Shown here one piece after another: positions 19,936-42,190 of a stretch of DNA of 64,000 nt. The stretch comes from Marseilla massiliensis (GTDB lineage: Bacteria; Bacteroidota; Bacteroidia; Bacteroidales; Bacteroidaceae), in contig NZ_JACJJL010000003.1 in the NCBI RefSeq assembly GCF_016899955.1, forward strand, positions 186,001-250,000. The letters run 5' to 3'. Below the pieces are notes generated by a model that saw only the letters and a list, made by a program, of their open reading frames with translations, was not told where the DNA came from and ran no database searches. Position 1 is the first letter of the stretch. Every line of letters starts with the position of its first letter. Both the position numbers and the translations under genes were made by a program.

Positions 19936-20175
19936 ATAATTGATTGTGGTTATGGATGCAATAAAAATGGTCGTACCGATGATGTGATGAAAACTCCTAT
20001 AACATAAGATTTGAGAGCTCTCCGCTTTTGTAATCCACCGGCATTTCTGCTACCCTGATGGGTATGTGGCCCGCCATTGGCAAGAGAAGTCATCTCGGTT
20101 TTCAATTTAATTTGATGAGTATCCCAATCTAACCGATACGACCTGTTGGATTCTCCTTTTCTTTGTGCAAAGATA
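19936..20175 (-). promoter_or_regulatory. Long structured leader of ribE, candidate regulatory RNA
   Basis: TATCTTTG on the minus strand at 20168-20175 would start transcription near 20164, leaving about 230 bases before the ATG. Within this leader are local hairpins (TACCC-ATCA-GGGTA, 20051-20064; GAGAGCTCTC, 20013-20022). A segment with GCCGGTGGATTAC followed by GCGGAGAGC faintly resembles the CCGGCGG...CCGCGAGC part of FMN aptamers. The full FMN consensus is not met, so a diverged FMN switch, another aptamer or no switch all remain possible. Confidence 0.35.
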
Positions 20176-36888: not shown

Positions 36889-37857
36889 ATGCCTTCACTG
36901 AAAGAGATTAAGACCCGGATTGCTTCAGTCAACAGCACGCGCAAGATAACAAGTGCCATGAAGATGGTTGCTTCGTCTAAGTTGCATCATGCGCAGGTGA
37001 TGATTGAGAACATGCTACCCTACGAGACTCTGTTGGAGCATATACTCAAGACATTCCTTGCCTCAGAGGCTGATGCCAACAGTGTGTTTACCGTGGAGCG
37101 TAAAGTCAAGCGGGTGGCTCTTGTGGTATACTCGTCGAACAGCAGCCTGTGTGGTGGCTTCAATGCCAATGTAATCAAGCTGATGCAGCAGGTTGTTGAC
37201 GAGTATAGGCATTTAGGTTTGGACAATATAGTGGTCTATCCCATAGGGCGTAAGGTAGCGGAAAAGAGTGTCAAGCTTGGCCTGAAGACTGAGGGCGACT
37301 ATTCGCTGCTTGCCGACAAGCCCAACGTGAAAGACTGCATCAAATTGTCACAAGAACTCGGAAAGAGGTTTGTTGACGGCGATATTGACAAGGTGGAATT
37401 GATTTATCACCATTTCAAGAGTGCCGGTTCACAAATACTTACCCGCAAGACATATCTTCCGATAGACCTGTCTACAGAGTTGAACCGTGATCATGAGCGC
37501 GATTTGTCATCTAATGTAGTGACAAAAAAGGCACAGGAGTATTTGCGCAAGAAAGGCAATGCTTCAGGAAGTTCTGTTTCAGAGCAAGCCAAACCGCTCA
37601 ATGATAACTTCATCGTAGAGCCGGACATGGATACCATATTGACAGAATTGATTCCGAAGCTGGCTCATCTGATGCTTTATACAGCTTTGTTAGACAGCAA
37701 TGCCAGTGAGCATGCAGCACGAATGGTGGCCATGCAGACGGCGACAGACAATGCTGACGAGTTGCTTCGCGAACTCAATCTGCAATATAACAAGAGCAGA
37801 CAGCAAGCAATTACAAACGAATTGCTGGACATCGTCGGGGGAACGGTTAACAATTAG
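36889..37857 (+). CDS. atpG: F1F0 ATP synthase gamma subunit
   Basis: The 322-aa rotor shaft protein has the N-terminal helix SLKEIKTRIASVNSTRKITSAMKMV, split by family spacing, and the C-terminal helix with DNADELLRELNLQYNKSRQQ. A Bacteroidetes-type insertion of charged residues lies around 205-240. It ends the operon with a TAG stop, and a terminator follows at once. Confidence 0.96.
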   Translation: MPSLKEIKTRIASVNSTRKITSAMKMVASSKLHHAQVMIENMLPYETLLEHILKTFLASEADANSVFTVERKVKRVALVVYSSNSSLCGGFNANVIKLMQQVVDEYRHLGLDNIVVYPIGRKVAEKSVKLGLKTEGDYSLLADKPNVKDCIKLSQELGKRFVDGDIDKVELIYHHFKSAGSQILTRKTYLPIDLSTELNRDHERDLSSNVVTKKAQEYLRKKGNASGSSVSEQAKPLNDNFIVEPDMDTILTELIPKLAHLMLYTALLDSNASEHAARMVAMQTATDNADELLRELNLQYNKSRQQAITNELLDIVGGTVNN

Positions 37858-37860
37858 CAT

Positions 37861-37892
37861 AAAAAGGGAGTCTCAAGAGAGATTCCCTTTTT
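37861..37892. terminator. Terminator after atpG, possibly bidirectional
   Basis: AAAAAGGGAGTCTC pairs with a downstream GAGATTCCCTTTTT, giving a stem flanked by A on one side and T on the other, so it can work on both strands. Confidence 0.75.
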
Positions 37893-37911
37893 GCTTTTCT
37901 ATAATCCTGTG

Positions 37912-38004
37912 CTATTGTTTCTGAGGCCAGCCTTTTGTTTTCTTCATGTGACCATAGAATGCAAGAGCTGATTTGCCGTAGCAGGATGAATAGTCTATTT
38001 CCAT
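37912..38004 (-). CDS. Possible 30-aa protein, tentative
   Basis: The minus strand reads MEIDYSSCYGKSALAFYGHM followed by KKTKGWPQKQ and TAG. The peptide is compact and protein-like, with paired aromatic and basic residues, and its stop is 20 bases from the bidirectional terminator. No promoter with TAnnTTTG was found upstream. It could be a real small gene or chance. Confidence 0.25.
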   Translation of the reverse strand: MEIDYSSCYGKSALAFYGHMKKTKGWPQKQ

Positions 38005-38930
38005 GTTTATGTATTTTTATTATCATATAATCAGCAAGGGGTAACAATCGGGGCAAAATCGCTCATTATCTTGCAAAGCATTTGTTTCGACAGTTGCGTT
38101 ATGCTCATGAATCTCTCACTGCCTTATCGGGACTTCTTGCTTTGCATTTAGTCTCTTTGTTGCCAGATGCGCTTTCGGTGAAGCCTACTGTCTGTCTTTG
38201 CGTCGACAAGACTTTATTGTTCTATGGCTGAGCTCTGCTGTTTCGTAAAATGTGGGTGTGCCATTGTTGTTATTGCGCATGAATTGTATGGTAAGAATAT
38301 GTTACAATGTCTATTGTTGGGTTGGTTCAGGACTGTTTTAGCCTTCGATTTGGGCGTTTTGAGCCAACGAAACAGCTCGTTTGATGGGCCGGAACGATAG
38401 TTCTTGAAACCCAGTGGGCCTGCTGCCATAATTATTTGGCACACCGATAGTTATGTCTTCGAACCCGAATGGTGAAAAATTTTGATATTATCATGTTGGG
38501 TATGGTGCATTGCCATTGAATCGTCTTGTTGCGTTCAGCCTGCCTTTCTCAATGCCGTTTGTTAGTTTGTGGGCAATTTTCTCAATTGCCAATGGATATT
38601 ACCGACATTTGGTAGTCGGTAATTGGTTTTGTAGCGTCATCGTAGCACTTATCAAAGACTGGTTGATTGTCTAATTGCCGTGGCAGGATGGCATGTTTGC
38701 CTTTGCATTGTCTGTATGCTTTGATATTGCGATTATAATCAAAATGGCGCGCGCATCACTGCGAACGCCACTGTTGTTTATAATAGAAATTTGGATTATA
38801 AAAGGTATGCAAATATATATTTAAAGGGTATTCATATAAATTCATCCGCCTAATGTCGGCGCTTCATTCCTATCGCAAATTTTCAGTGGGTTCGCAGTGG
38901 GCATGATTGCGCAGCATGGCTGTGAGACAA
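38005..38930. other. Gene-free stretch left of the inverted-repeat segment
   Basis: No sizeable gene on either strand. It contains a degenerate 22-bp array at 38346-38411. AT content is higher than in the flanking genes. Confidence 0.5.
38346..38411. repeat. Degenerate 22-bp repeat units
   Basis: Three consecutive 22-base units start at 38346, 38368 and 38390 (cores ATTTGGGCGTTTT, AAACAGCTCGTTT and a worn third). They match the better arrays elsewhere in the window only loosely. Confidence 0.4.
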
Positions 38931-38956
38931 CTTATTGGCATTTTCCATCCAATAAG
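38931..38956 (-). terminator. Hairpin at end of the small leftward transcript
   Basis: CTTATTGG (38931-38938) pairs perfectly with CCAATAAG (38949-38956). It follows the stop of the 33-codon frame by two bases. The T tract is poor. Confidence 0.4.
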
Positions 38957-38958
38957 AC

Positions 38959-39060
38959 TCATGTGTCATTTTCAATGACAATCGATAAAGTTACTGTCTC
39001 TTGCGGAGAGAAGAGCATACATGCCAACACTCGCAGTTTAGAATAAATTGATGAGTACAT
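38959..39060 (-). CDS. Possible 33-aa product of the invertible promoter, tentative
   Basis: On the minus strand an ATG at 39060, about 17 bases after the predicted transcription start of the promoter at 39081-39111, opens MYSSIYSKLRVLACMLFSPQ and ends 13 residues later. The reading frame crosses the left arm of the 21-bp inverted repeat, which encodes LFSPQE. A hairpin follows the stop. The transcript could equally be a non-coding RNA of about 150 bases. Confidence 0.25.
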   Translation of the reverse strand: MYSSIYSKLRVLACMLFSPQETVTLSIVIENDT

Positions 39061-39367
39061 TTCTTGCTGATTATCAGTTACAAAGATAGGCAATATTTTA
39101 TAAATGGCAAAACATTTGTTGATTGTTTTGATAAAATCAATCATTAAAAACCAAACAATCATATTTAAAATATAGTGACACATATTGGTCATTATGCCGC
39201 ATAGGCTTTAATTGTCCATTAATGTGAGATCATTTTATCTCTTGTGTGTGATTCTGAGTTACAATATGTTAAGTATAAATTATTGGGGTATCATGTTTTG
39301 GTTTCATCAATGTCATACATGTTTATTCTGCGTGGATTTGTTGCATTGCTCTTCTCTCCGCAAGAGA
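38997..39367. mobile_element. Candidate invertible promoter segment bounded by 21-bp perfect inverted repeats
   Basis: Bases 38997-39017 (starting TCTCTTGCGGAGAG, ending AAGAGCA) are the exact reverse complement of 39347-39367. Inside are 329 AT-rich bases with a consensus promoter pointing left (39081-39111) and a small palindrome just upstream of it (39120-39143). No target-site duplication flanks the repeats, and no transposase or recombinase is encoded, so an invertible switch acted on by a recombinase elsewhere fits better than a transposon remnant. Inversion itself cannot be seen in one sequence. Confidence 0.6.
39081..39111 (-). promoter_or_regulatory. Perfect-consensus promoter inside the inverted-repeat segment
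   Basis: The minus strand reads TTTG (39108-39111), 19 bases, TATCTTTG (39081-39088). This is an exact match in both boxes and spacing, one of only three such in the window. It fires leftward, away from uvrD, in the present orientation. Confidence 0.75.
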
Positions 39368-39742
39368 AATTCTTAGTGCTAGCTGATGATTATTGCCATT
39401 TAGCACATCTGTGATGAAACACAATATCTAATGATAATTCATTGATATGGGCACCTTTTAAGGCTTTTATGCTGAGTGTTGTGATGGCAATCTCGTAGTG
39501 TTTCTGATGCGAAACACCTCTTCTCGTTTTGTAAAATGCCTCTGTGGTGCTGAGTAAACCATCTCGGCCGATGTGTTTTGTTGTTCATTTGTCGTTTTTT
39601 GTTGAGTGCTATGCTATTTTCCTTTAGGCAGGCCAGTTGTCTGCTATGCAGAATAGTCGGGTCTTTTTTCATGTTTTTTGTCGACACTGCCAAACTGTTT
39701 GGCTATGTGGTTGCCTCTTTATGCTTAAAGTGAACATAAAAT
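39368..39742. other. Gene-free stretch between the inverted-repeat segment and uvrD
   Basis: No gene seen. A hairpin at 39424-39448 (ATATC...AATGA pairing with TCATT...GATAT) lies where a rightward transcript from the inverted segment might end. Confidence 0.45.
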
Positions 39743-39773
39743 TTTGTAATGTGCCCGAATTAGAGTAACTTTG
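39743..39773 (+). promoter_or_regulatory. Promoter for uvrD giving an almost leaderless mRNA
   Basis: TTTG (39743-39746), 19 bases, TAACTTTG (39766-39773) matches the consensus fully. With the -7 box ending about four bases before +1, transcription would start near 39777, two bases before the ATG at 39779. Confidence 0.7.
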
Positions 39774-39778
39774 CGCAA

Positions 39779-42190
39779 ATGAACGAAGATATATTAGGAC
39801 AACTAAATGACAGCCAGCGCGAAGCTGCCGTGTATTGTGATGGTGCCGAGCTTGTGATAGCCGGCGCCGGTTCGGGCAAGACTCGTGTTCTGACATATAA
39901 GATAGCATATCTGTTGCAATCAGGATATCGGCCTTGGAACATTTTGGCTCTGACTTTTACAAACAAGGCTGCAACAGAGATGAAAGAACGAATCAGCAAT
40001 CTTGTTGGCCATGACAAGGCGCGGTTGCTCAGCATGGGCACGTTTCACTCGATATTCTCAAGGATATTGCGTACTGAAGTGTCGCATATTGGTTATGACC
40101 ATAATTTCACGATTTATGACCAAGGCGACTCGAGGTCGTTAATAAAGACGATAATCAAGGAGATGGGGCTTGACGAGAAGCAATATAACAGCTCTTCGGT
40201 AGCCGACCGGATAAGCCTGGCCAAAAACAATCTCCTTACTGCGCATGATTACTCTTCCAGCATACACGTGCGGGAGGATGTAGAGCGTAAGGTACCTGCC
40301 GTGAAAGACGTGTACATGCGCTATGCTGAGCGTTGCCGCCAAGCCAATGCCATGGATTTTGACGACCTGCTGCTTAATACGTATTTGCTGTTTGCCCGGC
40401 ATGAGGATGTGAGGCAGAAGTATGTGGATCGTTTCAGGTATGTGCTTGTAGATGAGTATCAAGACACCAACTATGCACAGCAAGCCATAGTAATGCAACT
40501 CACGCGTGACCATCAGCGTATATGTGCCGTTGGCGACGATGCGCAGAGCATTTATGGGTTCAGGGGGGCCAACATTGACAATATTCTCAACTTCACTAAG
40601 GCTTACGATAACGCTAAGCTTTTCAAACTTGAGCAGAACTATCGTTCCACTCAGATGATTGTCCAGGCTGCCAACAGCCTGATCAGGCACAATGCAAGGC
40701 AGATTCCCAAGAATGTGTTCAGTGACAACGAGAGAGGTGAGAAGGTGGTGTTCAAGCAGGCTTACAGTGACCGTGAGGAGGCGGCCATTGTTTGCAAGGA
40801 AATCAAGCGGATAAAGAGCAGAGAAAAATGTGGATTCGGCGATTTTGCCATTTTGTACCGTACTAATTCGCAAAGCCGGAGCATTGAGGAAGAGTTTCGC
40901 AAGAGTAATGTGCCTTACAGGGTATTCGGTGGCTTGAGTTTCTATCAGCGCAAGGAGATTAAGGACATCATTGCATATTTTAGGCTTGTGGCCAACCCGA
41001 ACGACGAAGAGGCTTTCAGGCGTATAATTAATTACCCTTCACGTGGCATTGGCGACACTACTCTGTCTAAGATTGCCACAACAGCCAACAAGCATGCTTT
41101 GAGCCTGTGGACCGTTGCGTCGCAACCGCTTGTGTTTGGGCTGGAGGCCAATCGAGGCACCTATGCCAAGCTTGAGGCTTTCTGCTCGATGATAAGCGCT
41201 TGGCAGGCTGTTATGCAGTCGGTCGACGCTTATCAGCTTGGGCAGGATATAATAAAGGGGAGCGGCATCAGCAAGGAGATATACGAGAAGCGTGAACCCG
41301 AAGATCTGGCACGGCAAGAGAATGTGTATGAGTTTCTTGCCGGCCTGCAAGACTTTGTGGAAAGCAGGAGGGAGGAAGGTGACGGGGAGCATGTTTATCT
41401 TTCAGACTTCTTGCAGGAGGTTGCTTTGCTCACCGATTTGGACAGCGACAGTGATGGCGACGACAAGGAGCGCGTTGCGCTTATGACAATACACAGTGCC
41501 AAGGGATTGGAATTTCCCAATGTATTCATTGTTGGGTTGGAAGAGAATATCTTCCCTTCGCCAATGAGTTGCTCAAGCCTTAGGGAGCTGGAGGAGGAAC
41601 GCCGCTTGCTATATGTTGCCATGACACGTGCCGAAAAACGCTGTTTCCTCACTTGTGCACAGAACAGGTTCAGGTATGGCAGGGTAGAGTATGGCACTCC
41701 ATCACGATTCTTGCAGGACATAAGCCCTGAATATCTGAAGAAAGATGAGATTTCAACGCCTGCTTCTCCTGCGTATTACAGGGGTGGTGGACAGGCAGAT
41801 GGTGGTTATGGCTCTAAACCGAAATGGATGCAGAATCCACGCCCGGTGGCTTCACAGTTTAAGGCAGACCCGAAGCCTCGTGCTGTGCCTCCACGGCGTG
41901 AGGAAAATGCACCTTCGCCATTTTCGGAAGAGTTTGAGAAGAGGCTCAAAGTGGCTAAGTTGAGGTTGAAACCTGTTACAAAGGCAGAGATAGACGAACT
42001 GACCGCTCCGACGGTTTCTGAAGATGTCGGCATCAGCGTTGGCAATGTCATCGAGCACCAACGCTTTGGCATTGGCACTGTGATACAGTTGGAAGGACGC
42101 GGTGAGAATCTTAAGGCAACCGTACAATTCACAAACTCTGGCACCAAGCAGTTGCTTTTAAAATTTGCAAGGTATAAGATAGTGAAATAA
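39779..42190 (+). CDS. uvrD: ATP-dependent DNA helicase, UvrD/PcrA family
   Basis: The 803-aa superfamily 1A helicase unwinds DNA 3' to 5' in repair and replication restart. Helicase motifs in order are Walker A AGAGSGKT (28-35), LALTFTNKAATEMKERI (Ia), VDEYQDTN (II), VGDDAQSIYGFRGA (III), LEQNYRST (IV), TIHSAKGLEFPNVFIVGLEE (V) and VAMTRAEKR (VI). The C-terminus carries the Tudor-like tail with GNVIEHQRFGIGTVIQLEG. Length is slightly above PcrA. It is transcribed alone and followed by a hairpin. Confidence 0.95.
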   Translation: MNEDILGQLNDSQREAAVYCDGAELVIAGAGSGKTRVLTYKIAYLLQSGYRPWNILALTFTNKAATEMKERISNLVGHDKARLLSMGTFHSIFSRILRTEVSHIGYDHNFTIYDQGDSRSLIKTIIKEMGLDEKQYNSSSVADRISLAKNNLLTAHDYSSSIHVREDVERKVPAVKDVYMRYAERCRQANAMDFDDLLLNTYLLFARHEDVRQKYVDRFRYVLVDEYQDTNYAQQAIVMQLTRDHQRICAVGDDAQSIYGFRGANIDNILNFTKAYDNAKLFKLEQNYRSTQMIVQAANSLIRHNARQIPKNVFSDNERGEKVVFKQAYSDREEAAIVCKEIKRIKSREKCGFGDFAILYRTNSQSRSIEEEFRKSNVPYRVFGGLSFYQRKEIKDIIAYFRLVANPNDEEAFRRIINYPSRGIGDTTLSKIATTANKHALSLWTVASQPLVFGLEANRGTYAKLEAFCSMISAWQAVMQSVDAYQLGQDIIKGSGISKEIYEKREPEDLARQENVYEFLAGLQDFVESRREEGDGEHVYLSDFLQEVALLTDLDSDSDGDDKERVALMTIHSAKGLEFPNVFIVGLEENIFPSPMSCSSLRELEEERRLLYVAMTRAEKRCFLTCAQNRFRYGRVEYGTPSRFLQDISPEYLKKDEISTPASPAYYRGGGQADGGYGSKPKWMQNPRPVASQFKADPKPRAVPPRREENAPSPFSEEFEKRLKVAKLRLKPVTKAEIDELTAPTVSEDVGISVGNVIEHQRFGIGTVIQLEGRGENLKATVQFTNSGTKQLLLKFARYKIVK

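Follow-up and report, generated by a model that had tools for sequence, protein, structure and literature searches.

The window analysed here, a stretch of 64 kb, belongs to a Prevotella genome in the broad sense (G000, 4.13 Mb, 128 contigs), in which it spans C62:186001-250000, and contains a gap of 1921 bp between atpG, encoding the ATP synthase gamma subunit (36889-37857, plus strand), and a gene for an 803-aa uvrD/pcrA-type DNA helicase (39779-42190, plus strand), hereafter uvrD, the best NCBIfam match of which is pcrA with 770.5 bits, below the cut-off of that model. A terminator-like hairpin is located 3' of atpG (37860-37893) and, due to the A-run on one of its sides and the T-run on the other, it could also stop leftward transcription. 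No Pfam family was recognized above cut-off in the 10 of 35 listed stop-to-stop ORFs of the gap that were scanned, and no Rfam family reached its threshold there, the best sub-threshold match being sR4 with 21.2 versus 50 bits. This is in line with the first-pass annotation, which had noted the lack of any sizeable gene on the left: the stretch at 37894-38996 is gene-free from the atpG terminator onward. Elsewhere in the window, Bacteroidales-1 RNA, the suggested 6S RNA of Bacteroidales, was detected at 19963-20143 on the minus strand (146.5 bits).

Inverted repeat and enclosed promoter

The gap contains a perfect 21-bp inverted repeat, the coordinates of which were rechecked and are exact: the left arm (38997-39017, plus strand) reads TCTCTTGCGGAGAGAAGAGCA with the core TCTCTTGCGGAGAGA at 38997-39011, and the right arm (39347-39367, minus strand) is its exact reverse complement with the core at 39353-39367. 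The 329 bp between the arms (39018-39346) form the putative invertible segment. According to a simple calculation, 7.3e-6 perfect inverted repeats of at least 21 bp with a spacer of 20-600 bp are expected per 64 kb, and the longest inverted repeat across 20 Markov-1 simulated 64-kb sequences measured 15 bp. Length, perfection and spacer of the repeat are as previously annotated, and the same is true for the enclosed promoter: an exact match to the Bacteroidota-type consensus, TTTG-N19-TATCTTTG, is present at 39081-39111 on the minus strand and at present reads left across the left arm. It is one of three matches to TTTG-N17-22-TAnnTTTG on both strands of the window (584+, 39743+ and 39111-), and simulated intergenic sequence yields an expectation of 0.034 such matches per 371 bp.

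By its architecture the element is an inverton, as its 21-bp arms around a short segment of 329 bp are within the range of approximately 10-40 nt reported for inverton arms (PMC11892184) and the consensus match at 39081-39111 on the minus strand would serve as an outward Bacteroidota promoter inside the segment. It appears to be an orphan, with neither a surface gene nor a recombinase adjoining, and has a lineage-specific look. A shufflon-type array, in which several sites each precede a gene, is not what was found: there are two sites only, with no adjoining genes. In B. thetaiotaomicron, a map made with permissive settings reports 1,997 predicted repeats, 569 of them with potential promoters (PMC10994844), and given these counts a repeat plus an enclosed promoter is, on its own, weak evidence. 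The assembly holds the window element in one orientation only, on a 257-kb contig that is continuous across it, which is evidence against the window copy flipping often in the sequenced DNA; a strand-skew (strand-composition) test for past flipping gave z 1.38.

Related sites in the same genome and in other species

The first-pass annotation had named the possibility that the arm is a dispersed element that never flips. The arm is not dispersed, since at up to 3 mismatches no further copy was found in the 4.13-Mb assembly beyond both window arms. At the same tolerance, 39 of 398 genus genomes including the own one contained the arm, mostly with one match each; the backwards control of the arm also matched many genus genomes, and multi-copy matches occurred in G024, G274 and G404. 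A search with the core in the own genome returned 15 places versus 11 in the backwards control. Six of the 15 belong to the window and to two further orphan inverted pairs, C37:73267/73607 and C73:101304/101642, which have the core TCTCTTATGGAGAGA and spacers of 325 and 321 bp, respectively. The remaining nine matches were set aside, C117 and C95 resembling tRNA 3' ends by eye. In both the C37 and the C73 pair a consensus promoter lies just within the left arm and points left, and on the right lipoprotein-like genes (by eye) of 1261 and 1087 aa start close by, in the products of which no Pfam family scored above cut-off. Since the promoter points away from the gene at the right, both elements, each assembled in one orientation only, would be OFF in the assembled state. 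Recombinase-like matches are missing from the surrounding 20 kb on C37 and from the whole of C73. The two elements correspond to L095:8268-8622 and L096:8305-8657, and the lipoproteins beside them look alike (MRRKFISALLFGALVTASTSTFVSCKDYDDD...).

The pattern TCTCTTRYGGAGAGA was detected in 10 of 396 genus genomes, own counted, and forms inverted pairs in only two of them, namely G000 (three pairs, window included) and G351 (one pair); the other eight genomes contain single matches, with no inverted mate in the surrounding stretch. The G351 pair carries the exact 15-bp core of the window inside 25-bp arms and is located upstream of a UpxY-like gene (52.3 bits versus a cut-off of 100 for the NCBIfam UpxY model, the protein being 57% identical to its G082 counterpart), beyond which apparent capsule genes follow (by eye). 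TCTCTT-N3-GAGAGA is invariant in the 10 arms of five pairs (window, C37, C73, G351 and G082). Both arms of the G351 and G082 pairs carry a CCG/CGG extension, as do the right arms of C37 and C73, and the window arms are without it. Inverted pairs with related cores have differing interiors and the promoter in the same place; an outward promoter beside the left arm was also found in C37, C73, G024 and G274, nearer to the arm than the 64 bp of the window element. Thus, the core links the window element to a family of promoter pairs, which supports the earlier claim of an invertible promoter, whereas its phase variation has to be qualified, as the assembly shows the window copy one way only. DNA matches of the segment itself in three of 59 other genomes were weak and were rejected: those in G009 and G033 represent promoter sequence in common, and the one in G041 has neither promoter nor repeat. 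Additionally, three non-Prevotella matches of TCTCTYGCGGAGAGAAGAG were taken as chance, because no inverted repeat of at least 14 bp is present in the surrounding stretch.

Two capsule-type loci of the same genome, C51 and C57/C60, possess UpxY genes scoring 138.8 bits each, above cut-off, and combine a tyrosine recombinase with an inverted pair of related cores (TCTCCTGTTATGAGA and TCTCCTTATATGAGA, respectively). Both orientations of the UpxY-type segment are present in the assembly at C57:1-255 and C60:1-131 (L091 and L087): at the C60 end, 131 nt agree with the C57 segment when this is inverted, versus 77 nt as assembled. This is evidence that the C57/C60 sister inverton flips in the sequenced population; the contigs may also have been mis-joined through the repeat, although such a join must span 54 nt of flank plus 54 nt of interior.

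Long arrays of fimbrillin-like lipoprotein genes were observed in G024 (L036/L037), G274 (L038/L039) and G404 (L040/L093/L094), with Mfa_like_1 recognized in all three array proteins scanned and a glycine-rich C-terminal domain in two of the three. In these arrays a related palindromic site, TTTCTCTTCTCTCGCGGAGAGAAGAGAAA or a near variant, is located mostly 17-25 nt before the start codon, and a site near the start accompanies 12 of 15 (G024), 16 of 22 (G274) and 24 of 32 (G404) ORFs of at least 300 aa in the stretches examined. The G024 and G274 arrays have an adjoining tyrosine recombinase and one outward promoter between two opposed sites. Judging from this arrangement, recombination between the site at the promoter side and any of the array sites could set one promoter before any gene, which would amount to a large expression shufflon. 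The translation of one array gene of G404 (C15, L094:91-1890) is rich in X owing to ambiguous bases, which may reflect mixed reads from recombining paralogues.

A candidate recombinase acting in trans

The G000 genome contains 29 tyrosine-recombinase-like matches, none of them within the window, and the nearest on the contig (C62:251814) lies 26 kb away from the repeat, approximately 1.8 kb past the end of the window, which bears out the annotated absence of a nearby recombinase. It had been concluded that a serine or tyrosine invertase would have to act in trans; a trans-acting enzyme would indeed be needed, but a tyrosine rather than a serine recombinase is more likely. A serine invertase is disfavoured, as the Resolvase family has a single weak match in G000 (C61, 27.9 bits versus a cut-off of 23.3) and none in G351, a genome that is 89% complete.

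The best candidate for a trans-acting invertase on the window arms appears to be the product of an orphan gene on contig C106 (L086:8759-9958, 399 aa), the open frame of which is intact. Among the 11 recombinases compared, C106 and the G351 recombinase G351_C15 match each other best in both directions (62%). In a tree of 38 recombinases, in which the G265 row is a fragment and G351_C15 and G113 deviate in composition from the other rows, C106, G351_C15, G113 and G082 form a clade with a support of 100/100, the position of C106 inside this clade being unsure (87/27). Homologues of C106 at E <= 1e-120 are present in 25 of 396 genomes, own counted. At 14 of the 30 homologue loci examined, which include G000's own C106 and C48, an inverted pair of identical TCTC-N7-GAGA cores is located within about 0.7 kb of the gene, and no such pair occurred in 200 mononucleotide shuffles of each of the 30 loci. 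The other 16 loci are without such a pair, some of them being interrupted by contig ends.

In G082, a neighbour protein (HD-domain-like by eye), the recombinase, an inverted pair with the arms TCCGTCTCTTCACGAGAGACGGATTG and the UpxY-like gene follow each other in this order. C106 retains the neighbour protein of this type (79% identity over 193 aa), and beside it there is no TCTC-N7-GAGA site, no inverted pair and no UpxY-like gene, only 11-bp repeat pairs as chance would give. About 130 bp 3' of the C106 recombinase gene, a perfect 60-bp palindrome (L086:10086-10145; two 30-bp arms, no spacer) was observed, which may be a terminator, an assembly artefact or a collapsed site. A local site is found in only one of the four clade members, namely G082, and the G351 recombinase gene and inverted pair are on separate contigs; if the assignment is right, then in at least two species the enzyme would no longer be encoded beside its sites. 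By itself the core does not point to C106 in particular, since TCTC-N7-GAGA sites also adjoin recombinases outside the clade (C60, C51 and the arrays), and G113 possesses a close C106 homologue, yet no TCTCTTRYGGAGAGA match. The window arms may be recombination sites of C106, an assignment made by association only, C106 being present in the genome.

Overall, we consider an orphan invertible promoter, flipped by a distant tyrosine recombinase that is most likely C106, to be the probable explanation of the window element. The strongest competing explanation, to which we give real but clearly less credence, is that of a relic, i.e., a former invertible promoter the surface gene of which was deleted and which has stopped flipping or flips to no effect, the latter half overlapping with the preferred explanation. 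It would account for the gene-free flanks, with no remnant or homologue detected in what was searched (for the left gene-free stretch, one of 99 other genomes matched, with a 45-bp piece in G059), for the one orientation in the assembly, and for a C106 locus without the inverted pair and the UpxY-like gene present at its G082 counterpart. However, the 21-bp arms have kept their perfect match, the promoter is still an exact consensus match and the open frame of C106 persists. Less likely still, the element flips by the action of another enzyme, which could be C48 (with TCTCCTGTCAGGAGA as its local site), one of the capsule-type recombinases of C60 and C51, or a serine invertase. G000 contains six close homologues of the array recombinase including C106 (43-54% identity), the site cores differ little, and the one Resolvase-family match is above cut-off; nevertheless, C48, C60 and C51 adjoin sites of their own with different cores, and G351 shares the window core despite having no Resolvase match in its 89% complete genome. 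As a side observation, the tyrosine recombinase of C48 (L085:4522-10920) is followed by an 11-bp inverted repeat with the TCTCCTGTCAGGAGA core on one side, past which helicase- and methylase-like genes (by eye) possibly constitute a phase-variable restriction system.

A transposon or MITE remnant with terminal inverted repeats is very improbable. Although inverted repeats do bound a short, AT-rich, gene-free unit, neither a target duplication (the flanks are GTTACTG and AATTCTT, in accordance with the first-pass annotation) nor dispersed copies of the 21-bp ends were found, pairs with related cores differ inside but keep the promoter position, and plasmid and phage collections contained nothing similar to 37895-39740. 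A chance repeat or an ordinary structure (a cruciform or a pair of terminators, for example) has nothing in its favour beyond the inverted repeat itself and can hardly be upheld against the low expectation calculated above and a core common to four other inverted promoter pairs.

Possible outputs and comparison with known systems

For the preferred explanation, an orphan promoter inverted from a distance, we propose that a tyrosine recombinase encoded elsewhere, most likely C106, would bind the TCTCTT-N3-GAGAGA cores of both arms and invert the unit of 371 bp. As assembled, the promoter would read left into approximately 1.1-1.2 kb of non-coding DNA, the transcript starting near 39074, running through the gap and ending at the atp terminator. 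In the other orientation, the promoter would sit at 39253-39283 on the plus strand and read right over a leader of approximately 0.4-0.5 kb to uvrD, which begins 411 bp past the right arm, thus acting as an extra upstream promoter. What the analysis shows are the arms, the consensus promoter, the kinship of the site with other inverted promoter pairs, matching recombinases in the genome and a sister site assembled both ways; flipping of the window copy, the role of C106 and the existence or relevance of either transcript are inferences.

Concerning the target of the switch, the reading that the original surface-gene target was lost comes close to an even chance. An upstream promoter for uvrD appears a rather doubtful target, despite the fact that the switch would, as had been claimed, change the transcribed side: the promoter reads left now and would face uvrD when flipped. 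However, uvrD has a consensus promoter of its own, TTTG-N19-TAACTTTG at 39743-39773 on the plus strand and 5 bp ahead of its ATG; G082 and G157, the two closest relatives, possess a comparable promoter, and a consensus promoter is present in the last 60 bp before uvrD in six of 29 relatives examined. At these 29 loci, the best-matching ones of 181 relatives with a uvrD match, no inverted repeat with a TCTCTT core was found upstream of uvrD, so that the element seems to be lineage-specific and a conserved role in uvrD control unlikely. Other inverted repeats within 1.5 kb upstream of uvrD were found at two of the 29 loci, G082 and G222, the latter measuring 19 bp and lying more than 1.3 kb from uvrD. 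The one in G082, the closest relative, is a different inverted repeat, GGCTGTGTCAAAATG (in front of uvrD, at approximately L151:7246-7437), with a 162-bp spacer, and a pair resembling it, AAAGAGGCTGTCTCAAAATAGA, is present in the window's genome at L097:1882-2068. Adjoining atpG and uvrD were seen in one of 19 uvrD stretches of relatives, namely G188, where 174 bp separate the two genes. DNA repair would become phase-variable, should the uvrD side prove real.

A non-coding RNA at the left is an unlikely target, and folding gives a hint in its favour. On the minus strand, two of nine 150-nt sections (38530-38679 and 38660-38809, together covering 38530-38809) beat all 200 shuffles in folding, with z -3.1 and -3.4, and a fold of 875 nt gave z -3.07 versus 20 shuffles; on the plus strand the same two sections gave z -0.9 and -1.3. 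The minus-strand folding hints at a structured RNA within the gene-free stretch 37894-38996, the would-be non-coding output of the present orientation. For the first 150 nt past the right arm, on the strand of the flipped transcript, z was -2.3 and two of 200 shuffles folded equally well. A short ORF as target is quite improbable; the longest one starting beyond the approximate start at 39074 on the minus strand and inside the gap encodes 76 aa, and the longest one starting between the flipped promoter and uvrD 51 aa. A broader and speculative proposal, which we regard as unlikely, is a switch detached from surface antigens, with an invertase from a lost capsule locus, a structured non-coding RNA and a long-leader uvrD transcript as outputs, and phase-variable genome maintenance as the consequence.

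In Bacteroidales, global invertases are established, as are phase-variable promoters of capsule genes (PMC12632263). The window element shares the architecture of the Bacteroidales upxY capsule promoters; moreover, an identical 15-bp core precedes a UpxY-like gene in G351, and in G082 the relative of C106 adjoins an inverted pair and a UpxY-like gene. Unlike in the upxY systems, there are no upxY or capsule genes close to the window element. Mpi of B. fragilis belongs to the serine recombinase class. The proposed system resembles Mpi in that one enzyme would act in trans on dispersed promoters (PMC12632263), and differs from it in the tyrosine recombinase and in the fewer sites found. The counterpart closest to the window element among those described is IVp-II of B. 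fragilis, an invertible promoter beside groES/EL which the tyrosine recombinase BF2766/Tsr19 is described as inverting from afar and the orientation of which is reported to have no effect on groES/EL and to be needed for the adjacent gene of a seven-gene cluster (PMC4747536). As in the window, a promoter with a -7 element TAnnTTTG lies between inverted repeats beside one or more housekeeping genes, with the recombinase far off. In contrast to the window element, for which no target gene is evident, IVp-II is described as lying directly upstream of the seven-gene cluster, and Tsr19 also has a local site (PMC4747536). As no local site was detected beside C106, the window element is at most like the distant half of the Tsr19 system.

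In a survey of gut invertons, those of Bacteroidota are reported to be mainly intergenic, with genes for surface products enriched nearby, and one large group is described as having no significantly linked invertase (PMC11892184). The window element is like these catalogued invertons in its intergenic position and its Bacteroidota promoter type. In Prevotella species, invertible promoters before resistance genes have been reported (PMC8748976). The literature searched on invertible promoters of Prevotella and Segatella copri, in which reports are few, did not contain the site class of the window. Invertible promoters are often classed by the surface gene they drive and by the adjoining recombinase. 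The window element is without either, yet its site could be tied to a recombinase group by genome comparison, which offers a testable way of matching orphan switches in Prevotella to the enzymes that act on them in trans.
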